Assembly: GCA_003599595.1 (NCBI GenBank)
Contig: QZIP01000006.1
Coordinates: 1-40,875, forward strand
Length of the DNA stretch: 40,875 bases
Direction: 5' to 3'
From: Candidatus Parcubacteria bacterium
GTDB taxonomy: Bacteria > Patescibacteriota > Microgenomatia > Levybacterales > GWA1-39-11
Made by a program: the position numbers and the translations under genes. The notes under the pieces were generated by a model. It made no database searches. It was not told the DNA's origin and saw nothing but the letters and a program-made list of their open reading frames with translations. This document shows, piece after piece, positions 13,190-30,069 of the stretch; positions within the stretch are counted from its first letter, which is position 1, and each line of letters begins with the position of its first letter.

Positions 13190-13286
13190 AAAATGATTAT
13201 ATAACTTAAAGGGACTGAATCTCAATAATCTTGTTCAGATTTATTCCAGATTACACTCTTTCTTTATCCTTACATTATTTTATTTG

Positions 13287-13305
13287 TTATCTTAACTTAA
13301 GATAA
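13287..13305. promoter_or_regulatory. 19-bp dyad, possible operator
   Basis: TTATCTTAA-c-TTAAGATAA. Confidence 0.45.
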
Positions 13306-13357
13306 TAGGATGATTACGGTTTCAGAATAAGAGTATAATTAAAACTATTGAAAAGAT

Positions 13358-19142: not shown

Positions 19143-19957
19143 CACCTTGGAGGTGTATTTCTCTTGACACCTCGGTATAAATATACTACGCTATAAATAT
19201 TAGCAACATTAATACCTATGCCTGCAAGAACAGTACCTTTAATAACAGATCAGTATTACCATATTTTTAACAGAGGGATTAATAAACAGCCAATATTTTT
19301 AGCAATAAAAGACTACGCACGTGGCAAAGATTTAATAAATTTTTATTCTTTTGCGAACATTAGGATAAGATTTTCAAAATTTTTAATCTTATCAAATGAA
19401 AAAAGAACAGAATATTTAGAAAATCTTAAAAAAGAAAATAATAAAATTGTAGAAATTACAAGCTTCAACCTTATGCCCAATCATTTCCATTTATTGATAA
19501 AACAATTAAAGGATAACGGAATTTCAAAATTTATGAGTGATTTTCAAAACAGTCTTACAAAATATTTAAATATTAAATATAAGAGAATAGGACATCTGCT
19601 ACAAGGTCAGTTTAAAGCAGTTAGAATCGAAGACGATGAACAGCTATTGCACGTTAATCGATATATTCATATTAATCCTCATACTTCATTTATTGTTAAA
19701 GATATTGATGCGCTCTTAGATTATAAATGGTCATCATTGCCTGAATATTTAGGGGAAGTGAAAGATGAGATTTGTAATAAAGAAATAATTCTATCCCATT
19801 TCAAAGATACAGAAGATTATAAAAAATTTATTACTGATCAAGCTGATTATCAAAGGGAACTTGGCAAGATTAAGCATCTGATCCTAGAAAAATAAAAATA
19901 TACCGGGGTGACCTAGCTAAGACACCTCCAAGGTGTACTTGAAGGTGTACTTAGGTA
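19143..19957 (+). mobile_element. REP-associated tyrosine transposase (RAYT) element
   Basis: Y1 transposase ORF flanked by CACCTTGGAGGTG (19143-19155) and its complement CACCTCCAAGGTG in the right end, plus palindromic subterminal hairpins. Confidence 0.85.
19218..19895 (+). CDS. Transposase, Y1_Tnp / TnpA_REP family
   Basis: YHIFNRGINKQPIF, HUH motif MPNHFHLLIKQ, YLNIKYKRIGHLLQGQFKAVRIEDDEQLLHVNRYIHINP. Confidence 0.95.
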   Translation: MPARTVPLITDQYYHIFNRGINKQPIFLAIKDYARGKDLINFYSFANIRIRFSKFLILSNEKRTEYLENLKKENNKIVEITSFNLMPNHFHLLIKQLKDNGISKFMSDFQNSLTKYLNIKYKRIGHLLQGQFKAVRIEDDEQLLHVNRYIHINPHTSFIVKDIDALLDYKWSSLPEYLGEVKDEICNKEIILSHFKDTEDYKKFITDQADYQRELGKIKHLILEK

Positions 19958-22265: not shown

Positions 22266-22302
22266 AAAATAAGGAACTCTTTCTGTATCCTTACCTTATT
22301 TT
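22266..22302 (+). terminator. Possible terminator after PBP1A
   Basis: AAAATAAGG / CCTTATTTT 9-bp stem with about 19-nt loop. Confidence 0.45.
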
Positions 22303-22340
22303 GCGGATTATCTTAATCTACAAATGTATTATTAATTTAT

Positions 22341-22595
22341 ATGAATATCCTAACCTGGATCCTATTTGGACTAATAGTAGGGGTTATTGCAAACTTCTTG
22401 GACCCAAGACCATCAAGGGGAGGAATTTTTGGTGCAATAATTTTGGGGATAGTTGGAGCTTTACTGGGAGGTTTTCTTTCAAATTTCCTTTTTGGAATAC
22501 CATTAACAGGTTTTGATATCCGTTCTCTTATCATTGCAGTAATTGGCGCACTTATCTTGCTTTTTGCTGGAAGAACTTTTCAGAGACAAACATAA
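22341..22595 (+). CDS. GlsB/YeaQ/YmgE-family membrane protein
   Basis: 84 aa, three TM helices, GGIFGAIILGIVGALLGGFL signature. Confidence 0.88.
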   Translation: MNILTWILFGLIVGVIANFLDPRPSRGGIFGAIILGIVGALLGGFLSNFLFGIPLTGFDIRSLIIAVIGALILLFAGRTFQRQT

Positions 22596-23026: not shown

Positions 23027-23062
23027 AAAAACCAGGCAATATTTGTATTGCCTGGTTTTTTT
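23027..23062. terminator. Bidirectional intrinsic terminator
   Basis: AAAAACCAGGCAATA-tttg-TATTGCCTGGTTTTT, perfect 15-bp stem with A/T tracts on both sides. Confidence 0.93.
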
Positions 23063-23068
23063 GAATTG

Positions 23069-23317
23069 CTATCTATAAACTATTCTTCCTATCCAAATTA
23101 CAGCTATTGCTCCAAGTATGGCAACTATAATACTATAAAGGTTAAAGCCTGTAACTCCTGGTTGTCCCAAAAGAGTCATTATGAATCCTCCCACCACGGC
23201 TCCTATTATTCCAAGCAAAACATCCATTACCATATTTGACCTTGGGCCTGTTCTCATGATAACAGAAGCTACCCAGCCAACTATTCCTCCCAATATAATC
23301 CAAAGTAATATATCCAC
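23069..23317 (-). CDS. GlsB/YeaQ/YmgE-family membrane protein (second paralogue)
   Basis: MDILLWIILGGIVGWVASVIM...DVLLGIIGAVVGGFIM; GTG start preceded by GGGAGGTGA. Confidence 0.9.
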   Translation of the reverse strand: MDILLWIILGGIVGWVASVIMRTGPRSNMVMDVLLGIIGAVVGGFIMTLLGQPGVTGFNLYSIIVAILGAIAVIWIGRIVYR

Positions 23318-23382
23318 ATCCTCACCTCCCTTCTCTTATAATTTAATGAGATAGGTTAAGTACAAATATTAATTCTCTCCCA

Positions 23383-23422
23383 TTAAGATGTAGTTAAGAT
23401 ACTGTAAGAATTAATTAAGAAT
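23383..23422 (+). promoter_or_regulatory. Four heptamers at exact 11-bp spacing (PhoB/OmpR-type binding-site geometry)
   Basis: TTAAGAT-gtag-TTAAGAT-actg-TAAGAAT-taat-TAAGAAT at 23383, 23394, 23405, 23416. Confidence 0.75.
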
Positions 23423-23435
23423 GAATATTAATTGA

Positions 23436-23464
23436 TTTACATAATGAAGTAATTTTGGTAAGAT
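23436..23464 (+). promoter_or_regulatory. Promoter of the histidine kinase operon
   Basis: TTTACA (23436-23441), 17 bp, TAAGAT (23459-23464). Confidence 0.6.
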
Positions 23465-23482
23465 TAGCCTAGAATATTGAAT

Positions 23483-25150
23483 ATGGAAAACTTAATTGGA
23501 AAAATAAACAAAACAGGACTAAAATTTTTAGAGCCACTATCTCTTCAAAAAACCTATAAAACCATTATGAGTGAGGCGCTTAATCTGACAAAAGCAGAAT
23601 ATGGAGAAATATATATCAGAAACAAAAGAGAATTTGAAAAAGTATATGCAATACCAGAAATCCTCTTCAGTGTTAAGGCGCGGAAAAAAGGATTTACCTA
23701 CAAATCCTATAGAGAAAACAAACCTTTTAAAATTGACATAACCGAAGCCAGTAAAATTCATCCTGAATTAATAAAACTGGGAGTAAAATCCATTCTTTTT
23801 ATCCCTTTATCTTACAAAAGTAAATCGATAGGGGTACTTACAGTTCAGTTTAAAAATATAAACAATTATGATAGGGAAGACCTTAAGAAGCTTAGAATTT
23901 TTGGTTCAATGGCGACCCTTACTATCCTTAAGGCAAGGTATCAAAGTGAGGCGCGTGAAGCCATTAAATCAAGGGATACATACAAACGGACAGAAAATAT
24001 TTTAGAAAAAATAAATAAATCAGCACTCAATTTCTTAGAACCATTAACATATGAAGAAACAGGGAAAATTGTTGTTAGGGAATTAATGGAGGTTGTTGAT
24101 GGAGAAGATGCTACTATGGTCTTACCAATAAAAAACACCTTTAAAGTTTTTTTTCCTACGTCAGAAAAGATTGGAAAAATAAAACCAAGAGACAAAGGAT
24201 ACGCTTATAGAGCGCTTAATGAGCAGATTCCCTTTATGATTCATTTGGAAGAAATGTCAAAACCTCATCCGGAAATTATTAAACAAGGAGTCAAATCAAC
24301 CCTATTTATTCCCCTTTCATATAAAAAGCAATCTATTGGTGCTCTTGTTGTTTTCTTTTACAAAGACAGGAAGATGTCCCAAGAAGAATTAGACATTTTA
24401 AATTTATATGGTTCCCTGGCAACTTTAGCGCTTAGAAAGGCACAGCTTCATCAAGAAACCAATAGGGCATTGGAAGCACGGGACTTGTTTATGTCTATTG
24501 CTTCTCATGAGTTTAGAACGCCTCTTACTTCAATTAACGGTTATGCTCAGCTTCTTTATAACAAGCTTTCCAAAGACAATAGTACAGAAGTTAAATGGGC
24601 AAAAATAGTATATGAAGAAGGGGTAAGGCTAACAAACTTAATTAAAGAATTATTAGACGTTAACAGGATTAAAGCAGGTCAAATGCAGTATTTTCTTAGA
24701 GAAAATAGTATTTTAGACATTGTTAATAGGGTTGTTTATGGTTTCCGTTTTGAACATCCTGGACGTAAGTTGATATTTAAGAATAGTTTAAGCAGTCAAA
24801 ACACTTTTGTTATTGGTGATTATGACAAGCTGGTGCAGGTGTTTAATAATCTCTTGGAAAACGCTGTAAAATTCTCTTCCCCAGAGGAGCCTATTTTTAT
24901 GTCTTTATATTTAAGAGACCCAAATTTTGTTATAGAAATAGTAGACAAAGGAAAAGGAATTGATAGAAAAGATATTAATAGAATTTTCGAGGGATTTCAG
25001 AAAGCAGATAGTGGAATTGATGAAGGAATGGGAATAGGATTGTTTTTGGCAAAAAACATAATTGAAAAACATAAAGGTAGCATAAAAGTTCAATCAAAGC
25101 TAAATAAGGGAACAAAAGTAAGAATATTATTGCCGCAAATAAAGATATGA
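23483..25150 (+). CDS. Sensor histidine kinase with two tandem GAF-like domains
   Basis: HEFRTPLTSINGYAQLL (H box), NNLLENAVKFS (N box), DKGKGIDRKDINRIFEGF (G boxes); two repeats containing KSxLFIPLSYKxxSIG; track start is TTG 23477, ATG at 23483. Confidence 0.93.
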   Translation: MENLIGKINKTGLKFLEPLSLQKTYKTIMSEALNLTKAEYGEIYIRNKREFEKVYAIPEILFSVKARKKGFTYKSYRENKPFKIDITEASKIHPELIKLGVKSILFIPLSYKSKSIGVLTVQFKNINNYDREDLKKLRIFGSMATLTILKARYQSEAREAIKSRDTYKRTENILEKINKSALNFLEPLTYEETGKIVVRELMEVVDGEDATMVLPIKNTFKVFFPTSEKIGKIKPRDKGYAYRALNEQIPFMIHLEEMSKPHPEIIKQGVKSTLFIPLSYKKQSIGALVVFFYKDRKMSQEELDILNLYGSLATLALRKAQLHQETNRALEARDLFMSIASHEFRTPLTSINGYAQLLYNKLSKDNSTEVKWAKIVYEEGVRLTNLIKELLDVNRIKAGQMQYFLRENSILDIVNRVVYGFRFEHPGRKLIFKNSLSSQNTFVIGDYDKLVQVFNNLLENAVKFSSPEEPIFMSLYLRDPNFVIEIVDKGKGIDRKDINRIFEGFQKADSGIDEGMGIGLFLAKNIIEKHKGSIKVQSKLNKGTKVRILLPQIKI

Positions 25151-26592
25151 TGAGAAGAGAAAATGCTCCCATTCAAAATGTATTAGGTTTGCTACCATCT
25201 GAAATGAATCCTGAAATAGGTAGTAGAAGAGAGGTATTACAGCCACCCTTCTCTTCATCTCTTAATCCTCCATGTTTCTATGAGTTTTCTCAAGAGATGG
25301 AATTGTCCCTTGAACTTATACAGATTATGGAAAAGATAGCAGAGATGAGAGGTGAAGAGGGTATGGAAGTGTTTTTCAGCATAGAGGGAATGGATAAATA
25401 TGTTGCTAAAATGATTTATGAAATACAAGAAAAGCCCCAAGAAAGGCACTTTTTGGTAATAATGGGCGGGACAGGAGCAGGTAAAGAAGCTCTGGGAAGT
25501 GGAATAATTCAAGTATTTAATCAGGTTCTTGCTCCGCTTTTAGAAGAAAAAGAAGCAAGGTTAATGTTGAAATATATGTCAAATTCAGACTCATTGAAAA
25601 ATGCCCAGGAAGTGGGTCAAATGCCCCAAGACAAATGGGTAAATGAAGTTCCGCCGGAGGATTTGCCAAAATACACGCAGGCGGGCACAGATCAGATGGT
25701 GAACGCAGTACAATGGCTTCAAGAAATGCCCGGAAAAGATAAAAAAGGTAAGACAGTTACTGCGGTTGGAATATATGAGGTTTTAGGTATAACAGATGCT
25801 CATCCTGAAGATCCAAATGACTTCTCTTTCCCTCGGTTTGCAGAAGGAAAGATGCCCATAAAACTAAATATGGGAGGAGGACTTGTTCAGATGTTGGCAA
25901 ATGAAGTTCCTGAAAATCATCATGTTATTGCCTTAACTTCAGATTTAAACGTAATCATGAAAGCAGCAGCTATACGGGGATTTATAGAAGAAGCATACAA
26001 AATGTATAAAAGTGGAAATTTTACAGATAGAGACTTAAAACTTACGCTTTCTTTATTAGAAGAGTTGGGAATGAAAATAGATGATCCTAACATTACGATA
26101 GAGGATCTTGTTAAAAGCAATGGAGGAAGAGATGTTGCGCAGATAGTCTACGGTGCAATAGATCAAGTGTTAATTAGGTTTTTGCCTGAGATACTGTGGG
26201 AATGTTCTGATGAAACAAGGCTTAAATTCGCAAAGGCCACAGAAAGAAAAAGAATCACGTCAAAATATCTTGAGAAAAACCCAGAGGTTAGAAAGGAATT
26301 AGAAAGAGGGTATATGATGATTTTATTGAGAAGTTGGGGAATAAGTGAACACAATGTATTTATAGGAGAAAACAATGAAATTAGTGTTAATAAAGAAACA
26401 GAACCAAAAGAGAAAGGTGGTAAAAGGAGAGAAGAAGGAAAAATAACAAGAACACATAAAAGGGGTTTAATTAAAAAACTTGCCTTCCCCCCACCTTGGA
26501 AAAGGGAAAAAGATATGAGAAGGTGGCAAAGACAAAGAAAAAAAACCAATCCAACTCAACTAAATGGCTTACACGGAGAATTTTATATATAA
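25147..26592 (+). CDS. Unrecognised P-loop-containing protein coupled to the histidine kinase
   Basis: Walker A-like VIMGGTGAGKEALGSGI; ATGA overlap with kinase; long basic C-terminal tail. Confidence 0.85.
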   Translation: MMRRENAPIQNVLGLLPSEMNPEIGSRREVLQPPFSSSLNPPCFYEFSQEMELSLELIQIMEKIAEMRGEEGMEVFFSIEGMDKYVAKMIYEIQEKPQERHFLVIMGGTGAGKEALGSGIIQVFNQVLAPLLEEKEARLMLKYMSNSDSLKNAQEVGQMPQDKWVNEVPPEDLPKYTQAGTDQMVNAVQWLQEMPGKDKKGKTVTAVGIYEVLGITDAHPEDPNDFSFPRFAEGKMPIKLNMGGGLVQMLANEVPENHHVIALTSDLNVIMKAAAIRGFIEEAYKMYKSGNFTDRDLKLTLSLLEELGMKIDDPNITIEDLVKSNGGRDVAQIVYGAIDQVLIRFLPEILWECSDETRLKFAKATERKRITSKYLEKNPEVRKELERGYMMILLRSWGISEHNVFIGENNEISVNKETEPKEKGGKRREEGKITRTHKRGLIKKLAFPPPWKREKDMRRWQRQRKKTNPTQLNGLHGEFYI

Positions 26593-26605: not shown

Positions 26606-27277
26606 TTACTCCTTAATCATATATCCAAACCCTCTTACTGATTTGATCAGATTCTTTTCATAGCCGGAATCCACTTTTTTTCTGATATATCCCATATACA
26701 CATCTACAACTCTCGTCTCAATATCAGGCGAATAAAGCCAGATTCTGTTTAATATCATCTCACGGGTTAGTATCCTGCCTTTGTTGTGCATTAAGTATTC
26801 AAGAAGCCTAAATTCTCTGGGAGTTAGTTGAATAAGTTTTCCATCCCTTTTTACCTCAAGGGTTTGTTTGTCAAGCTCTAGATTTCCAACTTTAAGCTTT
26901 GAACTATCGCTTTCCGGCTGCCTAAGTCTTGCTTTGATTCTTGCCAGAAGCTCATCTGCAACAAATGGCTTTGTAATATAATCATCTGCTCCAATATCAA
27001 ACCCATGAACAATATCTGCCACCTGATCCTTTGCTGTTAATATTATCACAGGAAGTTTTGGAAATTTTTTTCTCAGCTCCATACACACTGCTTCCCCACT
27101 CATATTAGGAAGCCCTAGATCTAACACCACAAGGTCAGGTTCAAGTTTTTTAACCAGATTTAAAGCCGCAATTCCATCAGGGGAAGATTGTACGGCATAT
27201 CCATTGTCTAAAAGGAGTTCTCTGATATAACTTTGGACGCTGTTGTCGTCTTCTACAACTAAAATTGTATTAGCCAT
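26606..27277 (-). CDS. Response regulator, PhoB/OmpR family (REC + winged helix)
   Basis: ILVVEDD, LVVLDLGLP, ILTAKD, YITKPF; C-terminal LTPREFRLLEYLMHNKGRILTREMIL...VDVYMGYIRKKVD; start placed at MANTILVVEDD within ORF 26606..27289. Confidence 0.96.
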   Translation of the reverse strand: MANTILVVEDDNSVQSYIRELLLDNGYAVQSSPDGIAALNLVKKLEPDLVVLDLGLPNMSGEAVCMELRKKFPKLPVIILTAKDQVADIVHGFDIGADDYITKPFVADELLARIKARLRQPESDSSKLKVGNLELDKQTLEVKRDGKLIQLTPREFRLLEYLMHNKGRILTREMILNRIWLYSPDIETRVVDVYMGYIRKKVDSGYEKNLIKSVRGFGYMIKE

Positions 27278-27519
27278 TATGATGACCATTATAGCAAATT
27301 CTTACAATTGATCAATACCTTCGGAAACTTTCTTTCATAATTCTTACTTTTTAAAAAATTTAAGATTAATTGATTCGAAGCCCCAAATGATACACGGGAA
27401 TATCACTCCCCTTCATCTCTTTCTATCCTGTTTCTTACAATCTTTTAGTTAAAATATCAATCCAAGCAAACATTATTAAAAACTAAATAGTTTAGGAAGT
27501 TTATTATTTCAAAAATATT

Positions 27520-29354: not shown

Positions 29355-29597
29355 ATGCATTACGTTTATATACTGAAAAGTTCAAAATCCACCACCCTAT
29401 ATTATGGTTATACTGCTGATTTAAAGAAAAGGATCAAAGAGCATAATGATGGAAAATCAAGTTATACAAAACCATTAATTCCATGGAAACTTGTCTGGTA
29501 CTGTGCTTTTCCAAATGAAAAACAAGCAAAAGATTTTGAACTTTATCTAAAAAGTGGGTCAGGTAAAGCTTTCACTTATAAAAGATTAGTAATGTAG
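29355..29597 (+). CDS. GIY-YIG nuclease-fold protein
   Basis: HYVYILKSSKSTTLYYGYTADLKKRIKEHNDGKSSYT. Confidence 0.93.
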   Translation: MHYVYILKSSKSTTLYYGYTADLKKRIKEHNDGKSSYTKPLIPWKLVWYCAFPNEKQAKDFELYLKSGSGKAFTYKRLVM

Positions 29598-29656
29598 TCT
29601 TAGCGAAAGATGATTTGAGGATAATTTAAGGTGCTCTGAAGTTTTAACGAAAGACA

Positions 29657-29670
29657 CCCTGCCCCGCAGC
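29657..29670 (+). repeat. Duplicate of the tRNA-Gln 3' end
   Basis: CCCTGCCCCGCAGC identical to 29312-29325. Confidence 0.85.
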
Positions 29671-29763
29671 CGATTCGACTCACTGCGCTCGCTCACGGCT
29701 ATAGCCGCATTATTTAACATACTAAAAATGTAGGAAAAGTTTCGATTCAATATGAGTTGAATC

Positions 29764-29806
29764 GTCCTGAGCGAATGGTGAGCAGAGTTGAACCAGAGTC
29801 GAAGGA
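29764..29806. repeat. Interspersed repeat of GTCCTGAGCGAA...GAGTCGAAGGA type
   Basis: gtcctgagcgaatggtgagcagagttgaaccagagtcgaagga; adjacent hairpin CGATTCAA/TTGAATCG 29743-29764. Confidence 0.6.
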
Positions 29807-29817
29807 AGTTATTAACC

Positions 29818-30069
29818 ATGTCATATTTTGTCTATATTCTCCGTACATCTTCAAATACTCTTTATATTGGTCAGACAAATAATTTAGAAAAAAGAGTAAA
29901 AGAGCATAAAGCTAAAACATCAAAATCATCTAGATATGTTAGGTCATTTCCATCTTTTGAATTGGTATATTTAGAAACCTATTCAACTAGAAAAGAAGCT
30001 ATGCAAAGAGAACATCAACTTAAAAATTGGACAAAAGCAAAAAAAGAGGCTTTAATTAATGGAGATTGA
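29818..30069 (+). CDS. GIY-YIG nuclease-fold protein (second)
   Basis: YFVYILRTSSNTLYIGQTNNLEKRVKEHK; track start 29788 is a TTG inside repeat sequence, ATG at 29818 is more likely. Confidence 0.92.
   Translation: MSYFVYILRTSSNTLYIGQTNNLEKRVKEHKAKTSKSSRYVRSFPSFELVYLETYSTRKEAMQREHQLKNWTKAKKEALINGD

Follow-up and report, generated by a model that had tools for sequence, protein, structure and literature searches.

The PmrA (BasR) box, which is read by an OmpR-family regulator, consists of TTAAG repeats one helical turn apart (consensus YTTAAG-N5-YTTAAG). In Salmonella enterica, the PhoP box works in direct orientation when it lies an integral number of helical turns away from the -10 box (12, 23 or 33 nt), and reverse boxes work at half-integral turns, those at 27, 37 and 48 nt being active and those at 31 nt inactive (PMC3335776). 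PhoP of Mycobacterium tuberculosis binds as a tandem dimer to 7-bp motifs separated by 4-bp spacers, and arrays of three and four units are bound more tightly than a pair (PMC4832192). A search of the open-access literature, whose coverage is incomplete, found no described two-component regulon in Patescibacteria/CPR-type bacteria. The class of mechanism considered below is known; the regulator, operator and regulon in this little-studied group seem to be undescribed in the searchable literature.

The window, i.e. the whole stretch of 40,875 nt that was analysed, belongs to a genome of 1.4 Mb in 52 contigs, and protein families were assigned from Pfam and PDB sequence matches. A histidine kinase with two GAF domains, HisKA and HATPase_c is encoded on the forward strand (23477-25150; start codon TTG at 23477 or ATG at 23483), and its closest relative in genome_contigs, from a Levyibacteriota MAG, is 38% identical, which makes a Patescibacteria/CPR bacterium the probable host. 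The kinase stop codon is overlapped by the forward-strand gene of a P-loop protein (25147-26592; Walker A GGTGAGKE, no Pfam match), which is presumably co-transcribed with it. An OmpR/PhoB-family response regulator is encoded on the reverse strand (26606-27277; Response_reg PF00072 and winged-helix Trans_reg_C PF00486; PDB sequence matches MtrA, RegX3, PrrA and PhoP); an alternative, longer ORF start at 27289 overlaps its -10 box. Two further genes encode GlsB-like small membrane proteins of the Transgly_assoc family, TG1 (23069-23317, reverse strand, PF04226) and TG2 (22341-22595, forward strand, assigned with Pfam). Orthologues of the regulator, the kinase and the GlsB-like proteins adjoin in many related genomes, and kinase and regulator genes are often convergent, as they are here. 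This conserved neighbourhood of a HisKA/HATPase_c kinase and a regulator makes the GAF-domain kinase (23477-25150) the likely partner of the regulator (26606-27277), to which it would transfer phosphate. No relatives were found in viral_contigs. Elsewhere in the window we noted a strong terminator-like hairpin of 15 pairs just downstream of TG1 (23027-23060), two adjoining small ORFs that look GIY-YIG nuclease-like by eye (29355-30069), and an ORF resembling, also by eye, a REP-associated Y1-type transposase (19218-19895); 82 nt upstream of a similar ORF on contig C21 (L162) there is an operator-like site.

The intergenic region between the kinase gene and TG1 contains an array of four half-sites on the forward strand, TTAAGAT, TTAAGAT, GTAAGAAT and TTAAGAAT (23383-23422), which we propose to be a bidirectional operator. 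The original prediction had placed heptamers TTAAGAT at 23383 and 23394 and TAAGAAT at 23405 and 23416, and a promoter TTTACA (23436-23441)-N17-TAAGAT (23459-23464) beginning 13 bp past the last of them, and all these elements are present as described. The exact 11-11-11 phasing claimed for the heptamers holds when two unlike heptamers are compared, but not in their common TAAGA register, in which the units start at 23384, 23395, 23405 and 23416, in steps of 11, 10 and 11. The two 3' units, TGTAAGAA-n3-TTAAGAA, form a canonical 11-bp pair and constitute the 19-bp core operator TGTAAGAATTAATTAAGAA (23403-23421, forward strand). The kinase -10 box itself coincides in part with a fifth GTAAGA, at 23458. 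A lone half-site GTAAGAAT at 25118, at the 3' end of the kinase gene and ahead of the P-loop gene, was taken to be a chance occurrence.

If up to three mismatches are allowed, shuffles give an expectation of 0.05 occurrences per window for the pattern TAAGAN6TAAGAN5TAAGAN6TAAGA; it was seen once, with 0 mismatches, albeit that the four-unit pattern was picked after the site had been seen. It is therefore unlikely that the array arose by chance. TAAGAT does resemble a -10 box and TTAAG pairs are common in the genome, so one could regard the array, noticed before it was specified, as an accident of an AT-rich intergenic region or as tandem -10-like TAAGAT boxes that serve no regulator. We consider this highly improbable in view of the independent recovery of the motif without the window, its fixed spacing, its orientation rule and its phyletic co-occurrence with the regulator, all presented below. 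The generic word TTAAG-N6-TTAAG (up to one mismatch) is not enriched genome-wide, with 206 matches versus 286 for the reversed control, and the evidence thus resides in the fuller motif and its conservation and not in the simple word. This also distinguishes the sites from the PmrA box: both have TTAAG half-sites one turn apart, but, set against the consensus given above, what is conserved here is TGTAAGAA-n3-gtAAGAA, with GTAAGAA as its unit, and plain TTAAG pairs do not exceed the control.

An unseeded, de novo EM motif search was run on 50 promoters from other genomes, comprising the upstream regions of 32 regulators and 18 kinases, with the window left out. The best solutions were GTAAGAAattngtAAgAAa, and the resulting motif is an 11-bp direct repeat, GTAAGAA-n4-gtAAGAA. 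When the window was scanned with this model, the regulator promoter ranked first (27329, reverse strand, 18.8 bits) and the kinase-side array second (23404, forward strand, 16.5 bits). The highest score in 30 Markov-simulated windows was likewise 16.5 bits, so that the score of the array alone is borderline, and it is the position of the array upstream of the kinase, rather than its score, that carries the weight. Pairs of half-sites in the promoters of other genomes occurred 11 times at 11-bp spacing versus 0.3 expected, and a slight excess was also present at 21-22 bp; a clear site was absent from several of the orthologous regulator promoters. The conservation of the phased repeat in orthologous intergenic regions, proposed as a check at the outset, is hence borne out both by the motif search and by the spacing of the half-sites. 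The arrangement has two features of OmpR/PhoB operators, namely a direct repeat one helical turn (~11 bp) apart and a cognate regulator with a receiver and a winged-helix Trans_reg_C domain.

The best site in the window is the putative operator AGTAAGAATTATGAAAGAA in the regulator's own promoter (27330-27348, reverse strand). An additional half-site, GTAAGAAT (27298-27305, reverse strand), lies between this operator and the -10 box, and a similar extra copy is present in L115 and L134. The motif scan also located an inverted putative operator of TG2, GGTAAGGATACAGAAAGAG (22277-22295, reverse strand), 22 bp from which lies a TTAAGAT half-site (22310-22316, reverse strand); the flanking TTAAGA half-site of the kinase-side array is kept at other GlsB-like promoters too. 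A further candidate, the operator-like site TGTAAGGATAAAGAAAGAG (13256-13274, reverse strand), is situated between a tRNA_bind-domain gene and the gene of a 77-aa acidic protein (13370). The region comprising this site and its flanks (13256-13311) closely resembles the TG2 promoter (CTCTTTCTnTATCCTTACnTTATTTTn5TTATCTTAA). A second model, trained on regulator promoters alone and again without the window, found sites in 7/11 GlsB-like promoters versus 25/289 promoters of other genes (p=2e-5), and all seven were inverted. For the kinase promoters alone, the same model yielded 4/18, all direct, which is not significant (p=0.08).

The position of the sites relative to predicted -10 boxes follows two rules. 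The kinase promoter TTTACA-N17-TAAGAT (23436-23464, forward strand) has a TG before its -10 box, which is 37 nt from the core operator. The same TTGG/CTAAGAT element occurs in L115, L122 and L124 at a distance of 37 or 46-48 nt; an alternative kinase -10 box, TAGAAT (~23470), was dropped because it is the TTGG/CTAAGAT element that recurs in orthologues. The regulator has a predicted extended -10 box TATAAT (27288-27293, reverse strand), 36 nt from its operator. This box lies about 10 nt ahead of the start codon, here (27277-27293) and in many orthologues, and the regulator mRNA is therefore probably leaderless. Overall, in promoters with direct sites the predicted -10 box lies 12, 24-28, 34-38 or 46-48 nt from the 3' edge of the site, a distribution with a period of 11 (Rayleigh p about 5e-5, with some selection since one -10 box was chosen per promoter). 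For inverted sites the distance is fixed. The predicted -10 boxes of TG1 (TAATAT, 23366-23371, reverse strand) and TG2 (TATTAT, 22327-22332, forward strand) each lie 31 nt away from their inverted site, the core operator for TG1 and the TG2 operator for TG2, and 7/9 other GlsB-like promoters have TAnnnT at exactly 31 nt (shuffle maximum 5). We also examined 39 further sites, chosen by pattern alone in regulator-positive genomes and including two from this genome. On their inverted side TAnnnT stood at 31 nt in 13 cases, versus a shuffle maximum of 9, and ATG at 43 nt in 7 cases; on their direct side there was no peak.

The direct and inverted classes are thus about half a helical turn apart, and the helical phasing to the predicted -10 box is a third feature that the sites share with OmpR/PhoB operators. 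The array satisfies both rules at once, being direct at 37 nt from TAAGAT of the kinase and inverted at 31 nt from TAATAT of TG1. The proposal that the shared region also drives the divergent GlsB-like gene gains support from the other GlsB-like genes, where inverted sites stand a constant distance away from the predicted -10 box. The half-turn rule and the direct-repeat box are shared with the Salmonella PhoP box. The Salmonella half-site, however, is (T/G)GTTTA, arrays of three to four half-sites occur here, and the inverted sites here lie at 31 nt and not at 27, 37 or 48 nt; as reverse boxes at 31 nt are inactive in Salmonella, the exact inverted distance does not transfer from that system.

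The same operator and regulator might instead repress the GlsB-like genes, the kinase gene, or both. In GlsB-like promoters a third half-site is positioned 11 nt away from the -10 box, where bound protein could block polymerase, and the proximal TTAAGA half-site falls between the -35 and -10 boxes of the GlsB-like promoter. The placement of direct sites, at 12/25/36/47 nt, and of inverted sites half a turn off nevertheless follows the activation pattern of Salmonella PhoP (PMC3335776), and many promoters combine an extended -10 box with a poor -35 box, as at activated promoters, so that we regard repression as an unlikely, though not negligible, outcome. In the favoured reading, the phosphorylated regulator would bind as head-to-tail tandem dimers, with a monomer on each of the half-sites, which are spaced by about 11 bp; two to four half-sites would be filled, and four half-sites would fit two tandem dimers. 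On the kinase side the operator would act in direct orientation, 37 nt from the extended -10 box (TGGTAAGAT), and on the TG1 side in inverted orientation, 31 nt from TAATAT. This offset of half a turn would place the regulator on the same face of the helix for both promoters, and activation of both the kinase and TG1 promoters, a sign deduced from the phasing, is hence most likely. The regulator would also control its own gene (27330-27348) and the second GlsB-like gene (22277-22295).

Which regulator reads the operator is addressed by the distribution of the motif. The pattern TGTAAGRN7AAGAR occurs at 3.76/Mb in 35 genomes with the regulator versus 1.15/Mb in 63 genomes without it (p=1.2e-9); reversed-pattern controls gave 1.28/Mb and 1.21/Mb, respectively. 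After subtraction of the listed sites at two-component loci the density in regulator-positive genomes was 3.10/Mb (p=1.5e-7), and after removal of at least one site from each of these genomes it was 2.48/Mb (p=3e-4). Among the 98 genomes, enrichment of the motif is confined to those encoding this regulator. The genome encodes three Trans_reg_C domains, and the operator could in principle be read mainly by another of its OmpR-type regulators (C6 or C2). This is improbable: motif density tracks this subfamily across the 98 genomes, whereas other OmpR-type regulators are common in genomes without it; the motif is found upstream of this regulator's own gene; and the recognition helix, nearly invariant among the regulator orthologues, is different in the paralogue C6. 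The view that the neighbouring regulator reads the array as an OmpR/PhoB operator, as originally predicted, is supported by the orthologous 11-bp repeat, the spacing peak and this co-occurrence, from which we infer binding. Compared with M. tuberculosis PhoP, to which the regulator is related by sequence, the 7-bp motifs with a 4-bp spacer and the extension to three or four units are alike; the recognition sequence is different, as are the targets as far as can be judged from sequence, and one step here is of 10 bp.

The original prediction of a small regulon comprising the kinase, the P-loop protein and the membrane protein was supported for the kinase and the GlsB-like gene, and the predicted targets now also include the regulator's own gene and the second GlsB-like gene (22341). 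The P-loop protein is lineage-specific. No convincing relative was detected among 60 related genomes, with almost none in the order, so that only the overlap of its start with the kinase stop speaks for its membership; as a conserved regulon member it is not supported, and it lies outside the conserved neighbour set. The regulon is also probably not small. Apart from the two-component loci that were retrieved, 34 of 40 sites are intergenic, and the genes adjoining these wider sites encode FtsH, PspC, YflT, rhomboid, GH18, MsrA, MraZ and PAS kinases, as well as cupredoxins in two genomes; near two-component loci, sites are also found beside genes for KGG stress proteins and another GH18. Chance alone should account for about a third of the pattern matches (1.2 of 3.8 per Mb), and single targets are therefore not secure. 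Taken as a set, these neighbours predict a regulon wider than the locus and stress/envelope-like in character. L172 and L207 encode a small secreted family without Pfam match, 49% identical between two distant genomes, with an inverted site ~50 nt before the start in both.

Together, we assign a probability of roughly 0.85 to the reading that the array is a bidirectional operator of the response regulator 26606-27277, with the GAF kinase as its likely partner. The repeats are very probably a conserved docking site of this nearby OmpR/PhoB-type regulator, common to the genes of the kinase, the regulator and the small stress membrane proteins, and similar sites are predicted to mark a larger set of stress and cell-envelope genes in related small-genome bacteria. 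Sequence alone yielded a regulator together with the sequence it would recognise, a rule for its promoters and candidate targets (GlsB-like, KGG, YflT, PspC, FtsH, rhomboid, cupredoxin, GH18, MsrA and MraZ genes); purified protein, and reporters in standard laboratory strains, would suffice to test these predictions, and culture of the host is not needed. More tentatively, with odds somewhat below even, one OmpR-type system may run a general or envelope stress regulon across this order with two promoter grammars: its own genes would have direct, helically phased sites, and effectors would have inverted ones fixed at 31 nt from the -10 box. If so, several effector mRNAs would be leaderless and begin at a start codon located 43 nt away from the site, and the array would join the direct and inverted grammars in one bidirectional operator.
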